IMG/VR virus record: IMGVR_UViG_3300050015_000864
Coordinates: 1 to 26,942 of that record
Reading direction: 5' to 3' (one strand)
DNA length: 26,942 nt
Origin: a virus
The first letter of the stretch is position 1. Each line of letters opens with the position of its first letter. Below are positions 4,113 through 20,333 of this stretch, in pieces. The translations under genes were made by a program, and so were the position numbers. Under the pieces are notes generated by a model that was not told the DNA's origin, searched no databases, and was given only the letters and a program-made list of their open reading frames with translations.

Positions 4113-4188
4113 GCGCCGGTATCACGCCTCGCTACGAACGAGGAGAAGTGTAATTGGACACATGAGGGTTCGAATCCCTTTCGGCGTT
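4113..4188 (+). tRNA. tRNA-Arg (ACG), non-canonical arm order
   Basis: The acceptor is GCGCCGG/TCGGCGT, all 7 pairs with two G-T. The T arm is GAGGG-TTCGAAT-CCCTT. The anticodon arm CCTCG-CTACGAA-CGAGG is perfect but begins only seven bases after the acceptor (TATCACG), with no D arm between. The expected D-type sequence follows it instead: GTGT-AATTGG-ACAC at 4148-4161. CAC of the linker could also pair with GTG to extend the anticodon arm. Total length, 76 nt, is close to normal. The alternative is a D-armless tRNA with a long variable arm. Confidence 0.65.
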
Positions 4189-4356
4189 CTAATGGGTAAA
4201 GTGTTATACGGTCTGAAGCCCGGGTTTGGGAAATGAATCATCAGAGTACCTCAGGTCTATAAAATAACACAAGAGGGGAATCTTTTCAGATGATCAATCC
4301 TTCAAAGACGCTGAATTTATCCAGGTGGGAAGGGTTCGCCCGATTCTCACCAAATT
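4189..4356 (+). other. Non-coding stretch with two structured elements
   Basis: No gene is seen. GTGTTAT (4201-4207) pairs with ATAACAC (4264-4270) around a 56-nt domain. A second hairpin, GGTGGGA (4324-4330) with TCTCACC (4345-4351), has an inner GGG-TTCG-CCC stem and ends in ACCA, like a tRNA acceptor-plus-T-arm minihelix. The sequence between them is unpaired by eye. I cannot match it to a known RNA family. Confidence 0.4.
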
Positions 4357-4456: not shown

Positions 4457-4484
4457 TGAATATATATAGAAAATATTCGCATGC
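4452..4484 (+). promoter_or_regulatory. Start-codon hairpin of HEG2
   Basis: GCATGTGAATAT (4452-4463) pairs with ATATTCGCATGC (4473-4484), 12 bp with one G-T. The ATG at 4481-4483 is inside the stem. TATATATAG in the left arm and loop resembles the promoter-like core seen in the other HEG leaders. Confidence 0.6.
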
Positions 4485-5287
4485 TACCAAGAAATAAAAA
4501 AAATTGTGAAAAATGCAATAAAGAAATAAGTTTGTCTAATTTTAATTTGCATTATTCTTCATGTAAAGGAAATATAGAAGAAACAAAGATAAGAGTAAAA
4601 GAAGAATGGAAATTGGTCAACGGAAAATACAAATGTCCATATTGTAATAAAGAGTATTCGAAGAATGGAATTTCTACACATATTATAAGAAATCATACCG
4701 AAAAAGGAAAAGGGCAAAATCCCAATATTGGTTTTTTAAAGGAAACCCAAATTATTTGGAATAAGGGGTTATCAAAGGAAACAAATAAAAGTCTTGAAAA
4801 TCTTTCAAAAACATTATTAAAAAAATATAAATCTGGAGAATTAAAATCCGGATTTAAAAATAAAAAACATAATAAAATATCATGTGAAAAAATGTCTAAA
4901 AGTGCTATTCTAGCATTTCAAGAAGGAAGACATTCTGGATGGGTTTCAAGAAAAATACAAAGTTATCCTGAGATATATTTTGAAAAGGTTTTAAAAAGCA
5001 AAAAGTTATTTGAAGAATGTATCCCTGAATATTTTATTAAACATAAAAACAATTCTAATTATTTTTTGGATTTTTATTTTCCAAATAAAAGGATTAATTT
5101 AGAAATTGATGGCTCTCAACATGAATTGGAAGATCGAAAAATATCTGATAATCAAAGAGATAATTTTTTATCAGAACAAAATATATTTGTTTTTAGAATA
5201 AAATGGAGAAACCCAAAATCATTAGATGGTAAAAAATATTTGGAGAATAAAATAAAAGAATTTATTGAATTATACAAGCGGAAGTAG
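4481..5287 (+). CDS. Zinc-finger and VSR-like homing endonuclease (HEG2)
   Basis: A free-standing DNA endonuclease of 268 aa. Two N-terminal zinc fingers are visible: C9, C12, H24, C28 and C52, C55, H67, H72. The middle, about 85-150, has short NUMOD-like basic repeats. The C-terminal 64 residues carry EIDGSQH (E208, D210, H214), DNQRD and FRIKW, the pattern of the VSR/DUF559 nuclease fold. The gene starts inside a leader hairpin and ends in tRNA-Gly(TCC), whose conserved TAG at positions 8-10 serves as its stop. A truncated tRNA half lies upstream, so it probably invaded a tRNA gene. Confidence 0.85.
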   Translation: MLPRNKKNCEKCNKEISLSNFNLHYSSCKGNIEETKIRVKEEWKLVNGKYKCPYCNKEYSKNGISTHIIRNHTEKGKGQNPNIGFLKETQIIWNKGLSKETNKSLENLSKTLLKKYKSGELKSGFKNKKHNKISCEKMSKSAILAFQEGRHSGWVSRKIQSYPEIYFEKVLKSKKLFEECIPEYFIKHKNNSNYFLDFYFPNKRINLEIDGSQHELEDRKISDNQRDNFLSEQNIFVFRIKWRNPKSLDGKKYLENKIKEFIELYKRK

Positions 5288-8010: not shown

Positions 8011-8087
8011 GGTGGTATTAGTGTTAGTGGTAAGCACGAAAGTCTGTGGAACTTTTAGGATGGGTTCGAATCCCATATAACACCCCA
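8011..8087 (+). tRNA. tRNA-His (GTG), copy 1
   Basis: It has an encoded G-1 opposite C73, the His identity pair. The acceptor GTGGTAT/ATAACAC has one G-A mismatch. The anticodon arm is AAAGT-CTGTGGA-ACTTT and the T arm ATGGG-TTCGAAT-CCCAT. CCA is encoded. A Thg1-type enzyme, whose family adds G-1, is encoded at 14011. Confidence 0.93.
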
Positions 8088-8091
8088 TTAT

Positions 8092-8171
8092 GGTAGACGT
8101 AGCTTAATTGGTTAAAGGGCCAGATTGTGGATCTGATGCGATTGAGGGTTCGAATCCCTTCGTCTACCCCA
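8092..8171 (+). tRNA. tRNA-His (GTG), copy 2
   Basis: G-1, acceptor GTAGACG/CGTCTAC (perfect), C73 and encoded CCA. The anticodon arm is CAGA-TTGTGGA-TCTG; the T arm is GAGGG-TTCGAAT-CCCTT. The D region is slightly long. It is the second His tRNA, four bases after the first, and differs widely in sequence, so it is not a recent tandem copy. Confidence 0.92.
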
Positions 8172-8331: not shown

Positions 8332-8345
8332 GCATACGTGTATGC
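8332..8345 (+). repeat. 14-bp palindrome
   Basis: GCATACGTGTATGC is a perfect palindrome between tRNA-Thr and a small structured element. It could be a protein-binding site or a short hairpin. Confidence 0.45.
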
Positions 8346-8348
8346 GAC

Positions 8349-8404
8349 AATAGTGAAGAGTGGTAATACACCCCGCCGTTAACTTGAGGAGGTCAGGCAC
8401 TATT
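8349..8404 (+). ncRNA. 56-nt stem-closed element inside the tRNA cluster
   Basis: AATAGTG (8349-8355) pairs perfectly with CACTATT (8398-8404), the length of a tRNA acceptor. Inside are GTG-GTAATA-CAC and CTTGA-GGAGG-TCAGG hairpins. No anticodon arm or T loop is recognisable. It may be a degenerate tRNA or a separate small RNA. The GGAGG in a hairpin loop resembles a Shine-Dalgarno core but has no gene after it. Confidence 0.35.
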
Positions 8405-8407
8405 TTT

Positions 8408-8579: not shown

Positions 8580-8656
8580 CGGCCTGTATACCCTCTGTCT
8601 GATAAACAGTTGAAAGGTTAGCTGGTTGCATAGTGGTTCGACTCCACTCAGGCCGA
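8580..8656 (+). tRNA. tRNA-Ile (GAT), non-canonical arm order
   Basis: The acceptor CGGCCTG/CAGGCCG is perfect and the T arm AGTGG-TTCGACT-CCACT is perfect. The anticodon hairpin CTGT-CTGATAA-ACAG starts soon after the acceptor, after TATACCC and one more base, with no D arm before it. A 21-nt segment follows, holding GCTGGTT, which looks like a D loop. TACC before and GGTTA after the hairpin may extend the anticodon arm. The layout and length match tRNA-Arg(ACG) at 4113. A normal tRNA-Ile(GAT) follows at 8663. Confidence 0.6.
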
Positions 8657-8662
8657 CAAAAT

Positions 8663-8735
8663 GGGCGTATCATATAGTTGGTTAGTATACGTGCCTGATA
8701 AGCACGACACGGAGGTTCGAGGCTTCCTATGCCCA
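8663..8735 (+). tRNA. tRNA-Ile (GAT)
   Basis: The acceptor is GGGCGTA/TATGCCC (one G-T), the D stem ATAT/GTAT, the anticodon arm CGTGC-CTGATAA-GCACG and the T arm GGAGG-TTCGAGG-CTTCC. A73. Confidence 0.94.
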
Positions 8736-8790: not shown

Positions 8791-8817
8791 TATATATAAT
8801 AAATAATATTATGTATA
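8791..8817 (+). promoter_or_regulatory. Start-codon hairpin and promoter-like core of HEG3
   Basis: Bases 8791-8801 (TATATATAATA) pair with 8807-8817, 11 bp with one T-G, around a 5-nt loop. The ATG at 8811-8813 lies inside the right arm. The left arm itself is a TATATATAATA promoter-like core. Confidence 0.6.
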
Positions 8818-9557
8818 AGTGTAATCATTGCGATAAAGAATTTGAATTAAAACAACAAAAAACTAATCATGAAAGATGGCATGCCAATCCTAAACACAAT
8901 GAGATTAAAAAAGAATATTGTTGTTCGATATGTGGAAAAACATTTACAAATTTTGGATGGAAACAAATTCATGAAAAATATTGTGATGGATCAGGATTAA
9001 CTAAAAAAGAAAAAATTCTTAAAAACAGAGAAAATAATAAAGGCAAAACTTTTGATGAAATTTTAGTTCAAAAAGGAACTTATGAAAAGTTTTGTCAAAA
9101 TGTATCTTTTGGAATGAAAGAAGCTTTTAAAGAAGGCAAATTTACCGGATCCCCATCTACAGAAGAAGGCAAAAAAAGAAAAAATGAAAAATTAAGACAG
9201 AGTACATTAAAAAGATACAAGGAGGGGTGGGATTCAAAATGTGGAAGAGCTCCTAAATATCATTACGAAAGCAAGATAGCAGGAAAAATAACTGTTGATG
9301 GGTCATGGGAATTAAATGTAGCCAAATATTTAGATAACAATAATTTTAGATGGATTAGAAATACAAAAAGATTTGATTATGTTAATTTAGAAGGAAAACA
9401 ATCAACATATAAACCGGATTTTTATATTTTTAATTGGAGTAGTTATTTAGAAATAAAAGGATTTGAAACAAAACTGGATAAATGTAAATGGGAGCAATTT
9501 AAAGAACCCCTAATAATATGGAAAAGAAATGATTTAAAAGAATTAAAAATAATTTAA
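8811..9557 (+). CDS. Zinc-finger PD-(D/E)XK homing endonuclease (HEG3)
   Basis: A free-standing DNA endonuclease, 248 aa. Two N-terminal zinc fingers are visible: C4, C7, H20, H24 and C38, C41, H54, C58. A basic NUMOD-like middle region follows. The C-terminal domain begins VDGSWELNVAKYL and has the PD-(D/E)XK core: KPDF (D203) and LEIKG (E214, K216). The stop is two bases before tRNA-Ser(GCT), and a truncated tRNA-Ser half lies upstream, so the tRNA is the likely target. The start codon is buried in a hairpin. Confidence 0.86.
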   Translation: MYKCNHCDKEFELKQQKTNHERWHANPKHNEIKKEYCCSICGKTFTNFGWKQIHEKYCDGSGLTKKEKILKNRENNKGKTFDEILVQKGTYEKFCQNVSFGMKEAFKEGKFTGSPSTEEGKKRKNEKLRQSTLKRYKEGWDSKCGRAPKYHYESKIAGKITVDGSWELNVAKYLDNNNFRWIRNTKRFDYVNLEGKQSTYKPDFYIFNWSSYLEIKGFETKLDKCKWEQFKEPLIIWKRNDLKELKII

Positions 9558-9559
9558 AA

Positions 9560-9646
9560 GGAGAGTAAACCGGAAAGGTTTGCCGGAACCGCCTGCTAAG
9601 CGTGTTGAGCGTTAATTCGCTTGGTTTTCGAATATCCTGCTCTCCG
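9560..9646 (+). tRNA. tRNA-Ser (GCT)
   Basis: The acceptor is GGAGAGT/GCTCTCC, the D stem CCGG/CCGG, the anticodon loop CTGCTAA on a weak stem (CGC/GCG), the variable arm AGCG-TTAATT-CGCT, the T loop TTCGAAT and G73. Several stem mismatches suggest divergence. It follows HEG3 by two bases. Confidence 0.8.
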
Positions 9647-9652
9647 CTCATG

Positions 9653-9721: not shown

Positions 9722-10104
9722 ATGAACTTTGAAAGACATCAGGATCCTTTAACCTCAATGAATATTGGGATTACTACTTGGGATAAACTGCAGCAAGGTC
9801 AAGTCCTAAAAACTAAAAGAAGCGTAAAGCTTACCGAAATCCCTGGGGAGCATGGAAAATAAAAGCTGATGGTAGTGTGTTGGATAATTCTATTGGTAAA
9901 GATATGTTCTGCCATCTTATTCGTGTAAACCACGTTAGGGTAAAAGACGGAAAAACAAAAATTTTACAAATTGTATTTGCTGAATATTTATGGTTAGACA
10001 GTATAGCTAAAGATACTAAACAATTTACAGCTACAAAAACTTTAATTGGAAATATTGATCAGATCAAAAGTAGATTTGAAATTATTCAAAGAGTAAAAAT
10101 ATGA
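9722..10104 (+). pseudogene. Unknown protein gene broken by a -1 frameshift
   Basis: The first frame from ATG 9722 reads MNFERHQDPLTSMNIG and ends at 9862. The overlapping -1 frame reads RNPWGAWKIKADGSVLDNS, continues to 10104 and has no good start codon (only GTG at 9877). Together they would make one protein of about 127 aa. The shift lies between about 9800 and 9845, where there are runs of A and G. The family is unknown. It ends with a 4-bp overlap with the next gene. As with three other genes here, one missing base explains it. Confidence 0.6.
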
Positions 10105-10886
10105 AAAATCATTTTGTCCGAGGGGGAAATGTCATTAAGAAATTAGGTATAGGAAGATCCATTCTTGATGAACTCATGGAACATAAGGTTGCTAGACCTA
10201 TGAATGATCCTCGTGAAAAGCTGGAGGGAGATGAAAAATACAGTCAGAATATTGCTGTTTGGATAAATCCTAGTAATCAAACCTGTTTTAATGCTATGTG
10301 GTGTGACTATCAGAATCTGGAGGATTGGATGAACGGAAAAGGACCGATGGTTAAAGGGGATACAGATGAGGAAAAGAAAAAATATTGGGATTATGCTGTA
10401 GCTGAAGCAGAAGACACGGAACATATGATGTGGTCCATTTTATATCATTGGAAATGGTTTGACCAGTTTACAACAGATTTTGATCCTCATAAACATGCAG
10501 CTTCTTTTGGAATAAGTAACGTTATAAAAAATCCTCTTAAGCTTAACAAGAAAGACCCCTCGGAAACTATAAAAGCTATGTATGCTCCGTATGTGGATGA
10601 AATGGCCAGAGATATGGAATATAGGGACTGGGGTAACATTAGAAGAGAAGCTGAAAAAGAATGGTATGGGATTAAAAGAACCCTTTATTGTTTAGGAATT
10701 GGTTATATGGGAGCTTGCAATACCCCAGAGGAGATTGAAAATCTTAATTGGATTGAAGGTATTGTTCTATCTAAAGCATATTATAATGGATTGATTAAAT
10801 ATTCCCCCCATAAATCTCTTCCTGATTTTGCATGGCTTTCCCAAAAAGAGCAAGATAAATACAAGAAAGATAAGATGGATTTATGA
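10101..10886 (+). CDS. Hypothetical protein, 261 aa
   Basis: A soluble, mainly helical protein rich in Trp, Asp and Lys, with no signal peptide or membrane segment. The segments WCDYQNLEDWMNGKGPM and HMMWSILYHWKWFDQF stand out, but I do not recognise a family or catalytic pattern. It overlaps the previous gene by 4 bp and the hemerythrin gene by 4 bp (ATGA), so the three are probably one operon. Confidence 0.6.
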   Translation: MKNHFVRGGNVIKKLGIGRSILDELMEHKVARPMNDPREKLEGDEKYSQNIAVWINPSNQTCFNAMWCDYQNLEDWMNGKGPMVKGDTDEEKKKYWDYAVAEAEDTEHMMWSILYHWKWFDQFTTDFDPHKHAASFGISNVIKNPLKLNKKDPSETIKAMYAPYVDEMARDMEYRDWGNIRREAEKEWYGIKRTLYCLGIGYMGACNTPEEIENLNWIEGIVLSKAYYNGLIKYSPHKSLPDFAWLSQKEQDKYKKDKMDL

Positions 10887-13814: not shown

Positions 13815-14014
13815 TGGAATTCAATACATGCGGCACTTGTGGTGCTAAAAATGGAAGAGCAGGTCCTCTTATAGCTACAGAAAAAAGCAATCGGGTTTTT
13901 GAATGTATGAATTGTCATGATACCAGGGAATCTGGAGAAATTACTATTCATACGAATCTATCCAGAACTGATGCAGAAATTGAAAAAACAATGAAAATAC
14001 TTGATACAAAATGA
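13814..14014 (+). CDS. Small zinc-ribbon protein, 66 aa
   Basis: Two CxxC pairs, CGTC near residue 6 and CMNC near residue 31, form a classic four-cysteine zinc ribbon. The helical acidic tail contains NLSRTDAEIEKTMK. The target is unknown. Its stop overlaps the Thg1-like gene by 4 bp, so they are likely coexpressed. Confidence 0.7.
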   Translation: MEFNTCGTCGAKNGRAGPLIATEKSNRVFECMNCHDTRESGEITIHTNLSRTDAEIEKTMKILDTK

Positions 14015-14883
14015 AAGACGAATTAGGTGACAGAATGAAGGGTAATTACGAAGACAGAACTCGTTTCTCCCTTCCAAGAAGAACATATACAATTATCCGA
14101 GTTGACGGAAAAGCATTTCACACATTAACAAAGGGGATGTGTAAACCGTTCAGCGTAGATTTTAAACAAAACGTATTTGCTGGTTTTATGGACAAAACAG
14201 CAAAAGCTTTATGCGAACATATTCAAGGAGCTCAGTTTGCTTTTGTTCAGTCCGATGAAATCTCAGTTTTGTTAACTGATTTTGAAAAGACTACAACTGA
14301 TGCATGGTTTGATGCCAATATTCAGAAAATGGCTTCCGTAGCTGCTTCAATTGCTACAGCTGCTTTTAACAAAGCTAGACTGATAAGAGTTTTCGAGGAA
14401 TTCCCCAATACATTTGATATTGAACCTGAATTGGATTGCTATACTGTTGCAAAAATGATCGATATGGTTAAAGTTGGGGAATTTGATGCAAGAGTATTTA
14501 CTATCCCGGATCCAATAGAAGTTGAAAACTACTTTATATGGAGACAAAAAGATGCCGTAAGAAACTCTGTTTCGATGGCCGCTAAATCTCTTTATTCAAC
14601 AAAAGAACTCGAAGGAGTATCTTCTCAGGGAAAACTGGATTTGATTCACGATAAAGGAGAAAATTGGAATGATCTCCCCGATGGATTTAAAAGAGGACGT
14701 TTAATATCTTACAACTATTCTTTTGATCTTGAAACTGCTCCTTTAAATACTGGATCCTTTAAAGAAGAACACCAAATGGTTGAGGGGGTTTCCAGAGGAG
14801 CTTGGGAAGTTAATCCTGCTCCGGATTTTCTTAAGGAAAGGGATGAGTTGAGAGACCGTATTCCAAAAATAGAAGTAAATTAA
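14011..14883 (+). CDS. tRNA-His guanylyltransferase (Thg1-like)
   Basis: Thg1 enzymes add nucleotides in the 3'-to-5' direction: G-1 onto tRNA-His, and in Thg1-like proteins also repair of 5'-truncated tRNAs. The metal-binding motifs are present: IRVDGKAFH (D32) and QSDEISVLL (D82, E83). ARPRR-like basic residues are replaced by a shorter N-terminus (SLPRRTYTI). Length, 290 aa, is normal. Two tRNA-His genes here already encode G-1, so a 5' repair role for other tRNAs is as likely. It overlaps the zinc-ribbon gene by 4 bp and ends before a promoter. Confidence 0.9.
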   Translation: MKDELGDRMKGNYEDRTRFSLPRRTYTIIRVDGKAFHTLTKGMCKPFSVDFKQNVFAGFMDKTAKALCEHIQGAQFAFVQSDEISVLLTDFEKTTTDAWFDANIQKMASVAASIATAAFNKARLIRVFEEFPNTFDIEPELDCYTVAKMIDMVKVGEFDARVFTIPDPIEVENYFIWRQKDAVRNSVSMAAKSLYSTKELEGVSSQGKLDLIHDKGENWNDLPDGFKRGRLISYNYSFDLETAPLNTGSFKEEHQMVEGVSRGAWEVNPAPDFLKERDELRDRIPKIEVN

Positions 14884-15817: not shown

Positions 15818-15850
15818 TACAAAAACAATATTATGTTTTATGTATATCAA
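15807..15850 (+). promoter_or_regulatory. Start-codon hairpin of HEG4
   Basis: Two alternatives exist. ATATAATA (15812-15819) pairs with TATTATGT (15829-15836), 8 bp including one T-G to the start codon. TTGATATA (15807-15814) pairs with TATATCAA (15843-15850) enclosing it. The promoter-like TATATAATA is in the left arm. Confidence 0.52.
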
Positions 15851-16411
15851 TTAAGTTCTTTATCTTACGGGGTTTTTTATATTGGAAAAGGAAAAGGAAA
15901 CAGAATGTACCGGCATAGTGAAATAGCTCGGGGAAATTCTATTAATAGGAAAACTAATATTCATTTGTATAACCGAATTTTAAAAATTATTCAGTCAGAT
16001 GAAAAATTGGTTTATAAAAAAATATTTACTTCTGAAAATGAGGAGGAATGTTTAAAAGTTGAAATCCAATATATTAAGGAATATGGAACTTTTCATAAAG
16101 TTAAAGGAATTAAGCGAGGCCCTTTATTAAATTTGACACTAGGTGGAGAAGGAACTTCCGGATATACATTATCCGAAGAGACAAAAGAAAAAATGTCAAA
16201 AGCAAAAAAAGGAAAAAGTTTGCCTAAATGGTCGGATGAGTCGAAAGAAAAGTTGTCAAAAACAAATATGGGGAAGAAGGGATTCTGGGAAGGAAAAAAT
16301 TTATCCGAAAAAACAAAAGAGAACATGAGCAAATCTCATCTTGGAAAAAATAAAGGACCCATTTCTGAGAAACGAAGATTAGCTATTATAGAAGGAATGA
16401 AAAAATATTGA
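15833..16411 (+). CDS. GIY-YIG homing endonuclease (HEG4)
   Basis: A free-standing nuclease, 192 aa. The GIY half is YVYQL (residues 3-7) and the YIG half FYIGKGKGNRMYRH (from 16), with the conserved Arg next to it. The acidic residue is in ENEEECLKVE (about 60-70), then LLNLTLGGEG. From about 110, four NUMOD3-like repeats (SEETKEKMSKAKKGK and similar) bind DNA. The TGA stop lies inside a 10-bp inverted repeat that closes the following RNA domain. This placement recalls HEGs inside group I introns, but the gene has its own promoter-like hairpin. Confidence 0.88.
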   Translation: MFYVYQLSSLSYGVFYIGKGKGNRMYRHSEIARGNSINRKTNIHLYNRILKIIQSDEKLVYKKIFTSENEEECLKVEIQYIKEYGTFHKVKGIKRGPLLNLTLGGEGTSGYTLSEETKEKMSKAKKGKSLPKWSDESKEKLSKTNMGKKGFWEGKNLSEKTKENMSKSHLGKNKGPISEKRRLAIIEGMKKY

Positions 16412-16613: not shown

Positions 16614-16721
16614 GGTTTCGTAGCTTAGGGGCAGAGTACTGGCGGAACATGCGGGGAGCGAGAGATCGTCCGTAATGACCTAGAGGCATACGGGGCGGAG
16701 GTTCGATTCCTTCCGAGACCA
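16614..16721 (+). tRNA. tRNA-like sequence with interrupted anticodon region
   Basis: The acceptor GGTTTCG/CGAGACC (one G-T), the D arm GCTT/GAGT, the T arm GGAGG-TTCGATT-CCTTC and A73 are all good. Between CTGGC (27-31) and the T arm lie about 52 nt where 17 are expected, so about 35 nt are extra. These contain GCGA-GAGA-TCGT and CCGTA/TACGG hairpins. No anticodon loop can be chosen. It is too short for a group I intron. It could be a tRNA with a small insertion, or tRNA-derived RNA with another job. Confidence 0.55.
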
Positions 16722-19453: not shown

Positions 19454-19480
19454 ATATATAATAAAAACTATGTATTCAAG
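19447..19480 (+). promoter_or_regulatory. Start-codon hairpin and promoter-like core of HEG5
   Basis: CTTGGATATATA (19447-19458) pairs with TATGTATTCAAG (19469-19480), 12 bp with two G-T pairs. The ATG at 19470-19472 lies inside the right arm. The left arm and loop contain TATATATAATA. Confidence 0.62.
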
Positions 19481-20333
19481 AAATTGTCCAAAATGCGGAA
19501 AAGTAATAAATTATCGAAATAAAAGATCTTTTTTAATTTCGATAAAACAAAATACCAACTGTGGGCCATGCCGTTCTGCTGGTATAAATAAAGGGAAAAA
19601 AGCTTCAGAAAAAACAAAGAAGAAATTAAGTATAAACAATTCCGGCTCTGGAAATGGTTTTTTTGGTAAAAATCATACAAAACAATCCAAAGATGCTATA
19701 AAAAATTATAATATTGGGAAAACATATTCTGATGAAACAAATAAAACTAAAGGATTAAAAGGAGAATTAAATCCTAGATATGGCAAAAATAATTATGATT
19801 CATGGCTTAAAAAATATGGAGAAAAAGAAGCAAATGAAAAACTTAATAATTTTAAAAAGAAAGCATCAATAAATTCTTCAGGAAAAAATAATCCAATGTA
19901 TGGTAAGCCTTCCCCAACTGGTTCTGGGAATGGTTGGTCTGGTTGGTATAAAAATAAATATTTTCGAAGTTTGCGAGAACTTTCTTTTATAATTTACTAT
20001 ATTGAAAGATTTAATCTAAAATATGAAACTGGAGAAAGTAAGAAATATCAAATAAAATATAAGGATAATGAAGTTGAAAGAAATTATTATCCTGATTTTT
20101 TTATAAGCAACCATTATTTAGTAGAAATTAAGCCAATAAAACTTTGGAATAGTAGATCCGTTCTATTAAAAAAAGAAGCAGCAATTAGATTTTGTGAAGA
20201 GAGAGGATTAAAATATAAATTGATAGACCCCATAAAATTAGTTACAAAAATCGAGTTAATGAAAAAAATTGAAATGGGGGAACTCCAATTTTTAGAAAAA
20301 TATCAACTAAAATTAAATAATTATGAGTCATAA
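19470..20333 (+). CDS. PD-(D/E)XK homing endonuclease with NUMOD3 repeats (HEG5)
   Basis: A free-standing nuclease of 287 aa inserted at the start of guanylate kinase. C6, C9, C31 and C34 make a four-cysteine zinc site. NUMOD3-type segments follow (GNGFFGKNHTKQS, KNNPMYGKPS). The C-terminal nuclease core has FRSLRELSF, then YYPDFF and LVEIKP (about 205-222), matching PD-(D/E)XK nucleases. The last codons (Tyr-Glu-Ser-stop) are written in the re-supplied start of guanylate kinase, an 11-bp overlap, just as in the original upstream neighbour. Confidence 0.87.
   Translation: MYSRNCPKCGKVINYRNKRSFLISIKQNTNCGPCRSAGINKGKKASEKTKKKLSINNSGSGNGFFGKNHTKQSKDAIKNYNIGKTYSDETNKTKGLKGELNPRYGKNNYDSWLKKYGEKEANEKLNNFKKKASINSSGKNNPMYGKPSPTGSGNGWSGWYKNKYFRSLRELSFIIYYIERFNLKYETGESKKYQIKYKDNEVERNYYPDFFISNHYLVEIKPIKLWNSRSVLLKKEAAIRFCEERGLKYKLIDPIKLVTKIELMKKIEMGELQFLEKYQLKLNNYES

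Follow-up and report, generated by a model that had tools for sequence, protein, structure and literature searches.

Can an RNA with no room for a D arm in its usual place still be a working tRNA? The question is raised by 77 nucleotides at positions 8580–8656 (forward strand) of an uncultured phage fragment of 26,942 bases from IMG/VR (record IMGVR_UViG_3300050015_000864; this whole fragment is called the window below). The stretch carries the isoleucine anticodon GAT and falls between two of the 16 tRNAs that ARAGORN calls in the window. Judging from its letters and those of its relatives, we propose, with a probability of roughly 0.8, that it encodes a functional tRNA of the phage, one that represents a new structural class and would fold into the usual L-shape with a permuted connectivity of the core. 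Other phages and prophages yielded approximately 75 further members of this class, here called rewired. The class is a family of mostly arginine and isoleucine tRNAs that is widespread in phages; the window gene itself is missed by standard tRNA finders.

The gene reads CGGCCTG TAT ACC C TCTGT CTGATAA ACAGT TGAAA GGT TAGCTGGTTGCAT AGTGG TTCGACT CCACT CAGGCCG A. Its acceptor stem (8580–8586 with 8649–8655, followed by the discriminator A73 at 8656) and T arm (8632–8648, five base pairs and a TTCRA loop, as in a canonical tRNA) are perfect, with 7/7 and 5/5 pairs, as a first reading of the sequence (the original prediction) had claimed. The same reading correctly placed the GAT hairpin directly behind a short linker: only seven nucleotides follow the acceptor strand, namely the connector TAT (8587–8589), equivalent to U8, A9, and U22 in tRNA numbering, then ACC (8590–8592), equivalent to D-stem positions 23–25, and a single C. 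The anticodon arm (8594–8610, anticodon at 8601–8603) begins at offset 14, against 26–27 in a normal tRNA, which leaves no space for a D arm before it. Its seven-nucleotide loop with U33 is that of a canonical tRNA; its outer pair is U·U, which leaves a stem of four base pairs. Between the anticodon arm and the T arm lie 21 nucleotides, comprising TGAAA (8611–8615), a linker resembling a variable region that is five nucleotides long in 49 of 74 members and four in 22; GGT (8616–8618), the equivalent of D-stem positions 10–12 and the partner of ACC; and a D-loop equivalent, U13 A14 G15 C T G18 G19 U20 TGCA U48 (8619–8631), which is assigned on conservation among members and abuts the T arm. The D-loop-like stretch predicted behind the anticodon hairpin is present, but it has no hairpin of its own: the two D strands flank the anticodon arm.

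Neither ARAGORN, run on the window, nor the Rfam tRNA model RF00005 at its cut-off reports 8580–8656, and the chance of such an arm arrangement is 0.005–0.01 per shuffled window. A selenocysteine identity was rejected, the Rfam model RF01852 giving 19 bits (E 1.6) against a cut-off of 47, and the anticodon being GAT, not UCA.

The window holds a second gene found with the same layout, tRNA-Arg(ACG) at 4113–4188 (forward strand), with its acceptor at 4113–4119 and 4181–4187, CAC (4123–4125) pairing with GTG (4148–4150), the anticodon at 4134–4136, GG followed by A20, and the T arm at 4164–4180. The near equality of spacing claimed for the two genes holds, with an offset of 14 in both and 21 against 20 nucleotides up to the T arm. 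The arginine copy barely passes RF00005 (29.1 bits, the cut-off being 29) and has no ARAGORN call. Model R1 tells the class apart from normal tRNAs. It gives the isoleucine and arginine genes, both members of its training set, 81.7 and 80.4 bits, compared with at most 24 for the normal tRNAs of the window; members outside the training set (from PA11, Vibrio phage 1.101.O, and a second one from Zooman) score 59–67 bits.

Relatives of the window phage, traced through their Thg1 and MazG/adenylyltransferase proteins, carry the same kind of tRNA, Ile(GAT) in one (L017) and both Arg(ACG) and Arg(TCT) in another (L023). The Arg(ACG) homologue of the latter (L023:8389–8464) and that of the window are separated by compensated acceptor changes (GCGCCGG/TCGGCGT versus GCGCTTG/CAGGCGT). 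The wider search consisted of an IMG/VR pattern scan with a structural filter, a scan of bacterial and archaeal genomes with the anticodon left free, two anticodon-restricted scans, and one scan restricted at base 20. Pooled under a strict rule, these gave 72 unique sequences, against none in an equal-size 3.76 Mb shuffle, with the anticodons TCT (20), TAT (16), GAT (12), CAT (10), ACG (8), CCT (3), TCG (2), and CCA (1). Beyond the isotypes already known, the two anticodon-restricted scans of IMG/VR, with CT...AA loops fixed, yielded a single clear addition, a Trp(CCA) member. This member (L178:127–205) is miscalled by ARAGORN as tRNA-Ser(ACT), and only partial stretches of it were found in cultured phages. 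An exact core pattern gave no yield in viral contigs, and two weak model hits (L417 and L171, 37 bits) were not readable as clear members. A minority of members elsewhere pass ARAGORN or RF00005 at low score.

Given 71 aligned members and no structure, RNAalifold returns the acceptor, anticodon, and T stems together with a 3-bp helix that encloses the anticodon arm, formed by three nucleotides of the linker before the arm and three nucleotides after it (ACC and GGT in the window gene). Across these members 95.6% of cells are paired, against 59.1% when shuffled and 37–47% when slid, and the covariation score is 0.940 against 0.221. The T arm is 98.6% paired; changes on both sides are seen in all seven acceptor pairs, four of five T pairs, and all three pairs of the enclosing helix, and the anticodon stem pairs covary as well. 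The original prediction turned on the existence of further members and on a conserved acceptor pairing: further members exist, their acceptor is 97.8% paired, and its 5′ strand comes first and its 3′ strand last in every one of them. The claim of a shared architecture, as opposed to decay, is strongly supported, since other phages carry dozens of members whose stems covary.

The enclosing helix was not required of candidates, and 71 of 74 form all three pairs, all Watson–Crick; random re-pairing gives a mean of 20.1 and a maximum of 36 in 10,000 trials. Twelve combinations occur (CCC/GGG, CAC/GTG, CGG/CCG, CTC/GAG, ACC/GGT, TCC/GGA, CGC/GCG, AGC/GCT, CAG/CTG, AGG/CCT, ATC/GAT, and CCG/CGG). 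In the first scan C[AC]C and G[GT]G were set separately from each other, so that the mismatched CCC/GTG or CAC/GGG could have been retrieved; in tRNA context it returned 36 matched and no mismatched sequences, compared with 37 matched and 23 mismatched outside (p = 3e-6). All 36 tRNA-context members also have the GG and the U48 ahead of the T arm, neither of which was specified by the pattern. Two tandem copies in one contig (L083) differ by CTC/GAG versus CCC/GGG in the core helix and by a compensated acceptor pair.

In tRNA numbers, the members run U8 A9 U22, 23–25, 26, the anticodon arm 27–43, three to five variable nucleotides, 10–12, U13 A14 A15 Y16 Y17 G18 G19 N20 ... U48, and the T arm. 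U8 and A9 are found in 74/74 and the third T of the connector in 72/74, letters partly fixed by the search patterns; A15–U48 is found in 70/74, and a G–C pair replaces it in one more. A pyrimidine–pyrimidine mismatch at 27–43 leaves a 4-bp anticodon stem in all 28 isoleucine and all 10 CAT members, whereas arginine members mostly keep the pair (5 bp); tRNAs with 4-bp anticodon stems are available for comparison (PMC13092985).

A normal tRNA proceeds from the acceptor through 8 and 9 to a first block (10–13 and the D-loop) and a second block (22–25, 26, the anticodon arm, and the variable region), and then to the T arm and acceptor. In our model the two blocks would be swapped, the D-stem 5′ strand and D-loop being placed behind the D-stem 3′ strand, anticodon arm, and variable nucleotides, with the acceptor and T arms unchanged. 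The D stem and anticodon stem, which are stacked in a normal tRNA, would merge into a single continuous hairpin that contains an internal loop, and the D-loop would pass straight into the T arm, with A14 and A15 available for U8 and U48, and G18 and G19 for the T loop; that these tertiary contacts form is inferred from conservation. The RNA would be transcribed by the phage within its tRNA array, processed by those host enzymes that recognise the unaltered acceptor/T half, charged by isoleucyl- or arginyl-tRNA synthetase through the anticodon, base 20, and base 73, and would decode isoleucine or arginine codons on the ribosome.

The bases expected for charging are in place. The determinants of isoleucine tRNAs are the discriminator, the anticodon, and D20, and in bacterial arginine tRNAs A20 is the main determinant, with A, G, or U at 73 (PMC9976931). 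Among members, base 20 follows the anticodon, being A20 in 34/35 arginine and U20 in 28/28 isoleucine members, and base 73 is A in 28/28 isoleucine and 10/10 CAT members and A, G, or U in arginine members. The sole Trp(CCA) member has G73, the base wanted by bacterial tryptophanyl-tRNA synthetase. All four amino acids of the class are served by class I synthetases, a link that is only suggestive with so few isotypes. Beside the rewired Ile(GAT) in two contigs lies a tRNA with a long variable arm, a Leu/Ser-like D arm, and a GAT anticodon (L447:1588–1671 and L123:7399–7482), which may put another amino acid at isoleucine codons.

Members stand in tRNA arrays, with 544 surrounding tRNAs on the same strand and 6 on the opposite one. 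In cultured phages one query alone matches at least 80 records, mostly of Streptomyces phages (Jay2Jay among them) and almost always unannotated; other carriers are phages of Gordonia, Microbacterium (Zooman), Pseudomonas (PA11), and Vibrio, and crAss-like phages. The core of the window isoleucine gene (its positions 7–66) is 86.7% identical in several Streptomyces phages, for example, StarPlatinum and Karimac, with the acceptor stem mostly outside the match; in Streptomyces phage EGole (MK494112, 75266–75339) a rewired isoleucine gene is annotated as tRNA-Leu. A cellular origin was rejected: a scan of 148 Bacteroidota genomes matched only the Pedobacter genome used as its centre, beside a phage portal gene, and a Devosia member is near an integrase.

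PA11 has no ARAGORN tRNA and a single rewired Arg(TCT), which would read AGA/AGG, 41% of its arginine codons; in crAss-like phage cr130_1, where 46% of the isoleucine codons are AUA, there is a rewired Ile(TAT); Zooman has a rewired Arg(TCT) without a normal one, and Arg(ACG) in duplicate, normal and rewired. Decoding is therefore the simplest role, with the rewired copy a duplicate in some phages. In cr130_1 (NC_055901) ARAGORN also reports a tRNA with a CTA anticodon, labelled Pyl, which is likely an amber suppressor.

Several points weigh against a working tRNA with a permuted core. In three of the 74 members the 3-bp helix is broken when the register is held fixed, and energy folding does not favour the proposed core in the window isoleucine RNA, although it does in the Jay2Jay member. 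Most members were retrieved with patterns in which TAT, TAA(T), and portions of the anticodon loop are preset, and conservation at these places is partly ascertainment; the covariation and identity-base results are independent of these letters. Jay2Jay and the window have both a normal and a rewired Ile(GAT), and in some further phages, too, a rewired tRNA is accompanied by a normal one of its own anticodon. Finally, the observations concern sequence, covarying pairing, conservation, the identity-base rule, and distribution, and it is from these that expression, charging, use on the ribosome, and three-dimensional structure are predicted.

Such duplicates leave some room for a tRNA mimic that does not translate, acting as a regulator or as a decoy for a tRNA-cutting defence enzyme; a normal tRNA of the same anticodon is encoded in the window, Jay2Jay, and Zooman, and phage tRNAs have been proposed to act against host defences that deplete or cut tRNAs (PMC10264068). 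The original prediction had held that the isoleucine copy is not needed for decoding alone, which stands for the window and Jay2Jay but fails for PA11, where no other tRNA is detectable, and for Zooman, which has no other Arg(TCT): there the rewired member covers an anticodon with no other phage copy. Bases 20 and 73, moreover, track the anticodon and match what charging requires, which makes a mimic less likely, and we consider it an improbable explanation. A duplicate of altered shape would fit the defence-resistance proposal (PMC10264068). Tentatively, and with some doubt, one can imagine a second working topology of the tRNA L-shape, mature, charged, and translating, that has spread in phages of distant hosts by escaping tRNA-cutting defences or other readers of the D-arm/variable-loop face.

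The original prediction envisaged a reordering of the four ordinary arms, in which the acceptor is followed by the anticodon arm, then by a D hairpin of its own, and then by the T arm. The Arg(ACG) gene at 4113–4188 can form such a hairpin (GTGT-AATTGG-ACAC), which energy folding prefers there; only 14 of 73 members can form one, however, against the 71 of 74 with the enclosing helix, and it is the enclosing helix that covaries. This order is accordingly very unlikely. We give hardly any weight to a permuted gene whose transcript would be spliced back to the normal cloverleaf before it is used, like those of the permuted tRNA genes known from red algae and archaea (PMC3218864). Zooman does have an RtcB-like RNA ligase gene about 2 kb from its tRNA array. 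The acceptor ends, however, are already normally ordered, repair of the core would take three cuts and three joins, and the conserved joints and the hairpin-continuous helix are sensible only in the unspliced order; nor do we know of a bacterial pathway for re-joining a tRNA core in this way. A decaying or scrambled remnant, suggested by the missing ARAGORN call, the other degenerate tRNA-like stretches of the window, and the adjoining normal Ile(GAT), is practically negligible as an explanation, being already contradicted by compensatory changes and by what unrelated phages have in common, namely perfect covarying stems and conserved bases in the core and at the identity positions.

The rewired class is still a tRNA, in a strand order that matches none known to us. 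To our knowledge, all described tRNAs, including armless ones, selenocysteine tRNAs, and allo-tRNAs, keep one strand order, and the known permuted genes are repaired to that order. Plant-virus tRNA-like structures also reach an L-shape through another strand topology, but they form the 3′ termini of viral genomic RNAs and have an acceptor built as a pseudoknot, whereas the rewired acceptor is normal. With canonical tRNAs (RF00005) the class shares the 7-bp acceptor, TTCRA T arm, anticodon arm with U33, equivalents of U8, A14, A15, G18, G19, and U48, occurrence in arrays, and identity bases, and it differs in that the D-stem 5′ strand and D-loop come after the anticodon arm. The permuted genes of Cyanidioschyzon merolae and Thermofilum pendens likewise have tRNA parts out of order, but in them the 3′ half precedes the 5′ half, and splicing at a bulge-helix-bulge motif yields a normal mature tRNA (PMC3218864); rewired genes have normal ends, and it is their core that is permuted. 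D-armless mitochondrial tRNAs also lack a D hairpin between acceptor and anticodon arm (PMC7609411), but they lose the D arm, whereas the rewired phage tRNAs keep a re-threaded D-stem pairing (71/74) and the GG loop. Allo-tRNAs and tRNA-Sec-like tRNAs, also natural and non-canonical, have altered arm lengths in normal strand order (PMC7609411). The open-access literature on phage, permuted, armless, or atypical tRNAs gave no precedent, a provisional result with subscription papers and most preprints outside its scope.

A natural family with another strand order would, if confirmed, mean that translation needs the L-shape and not a particular connectivity. The class would add overlooked tRNAs to the known content of phage genomes, a point of importance wherever phage tRNAs are related to codon usage or to tRNA-targeting defences. 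It would also supply an existing scaffold from which orthogonal tRNAs could be built, and it is directly testable, being present in isolated phages that grow on laboratory hosts.

The window has further features. A normal cloverleaf tRNA-Ile(GAT) (8663–8735, forward strand; ARAGORN and Rfam) starts 7 nucleotides downstream of the rewired copy, as had been noted originally, and scores only 12.4 bits with R1. ARAGORN leaves uncalled several tRNA-like stretches (8336–8405, 855–936, 540–660, 4194–4340, and 9559–9650), among them an Asn(GTT)-like one, a Met(CAT)-like hairpin, and a Ser(GCT)-like one; some may be decayed or unusual tRNAs. A 108-nucleotide match to the Rfam tRNA model at 16614–16721 (37.5 bits, no ARAGORN call) perhaps has an insertion or a long arm. 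The protein encoded at 10101–10883 had no relatives found by search. Open reading frames that look by eye like GIY-YIG or HNH endonucleases lie beside or among the tRNA genes (4481–5287, 8811–9557, 15833–16411, and 19470–20333). At 14011–14880 the window encodes Thg1, of the tRNA-His guanylyltransferase family (PF04446), and tRNA-His(GTG) genes start at 8012 and, as a second copy, at 8093.
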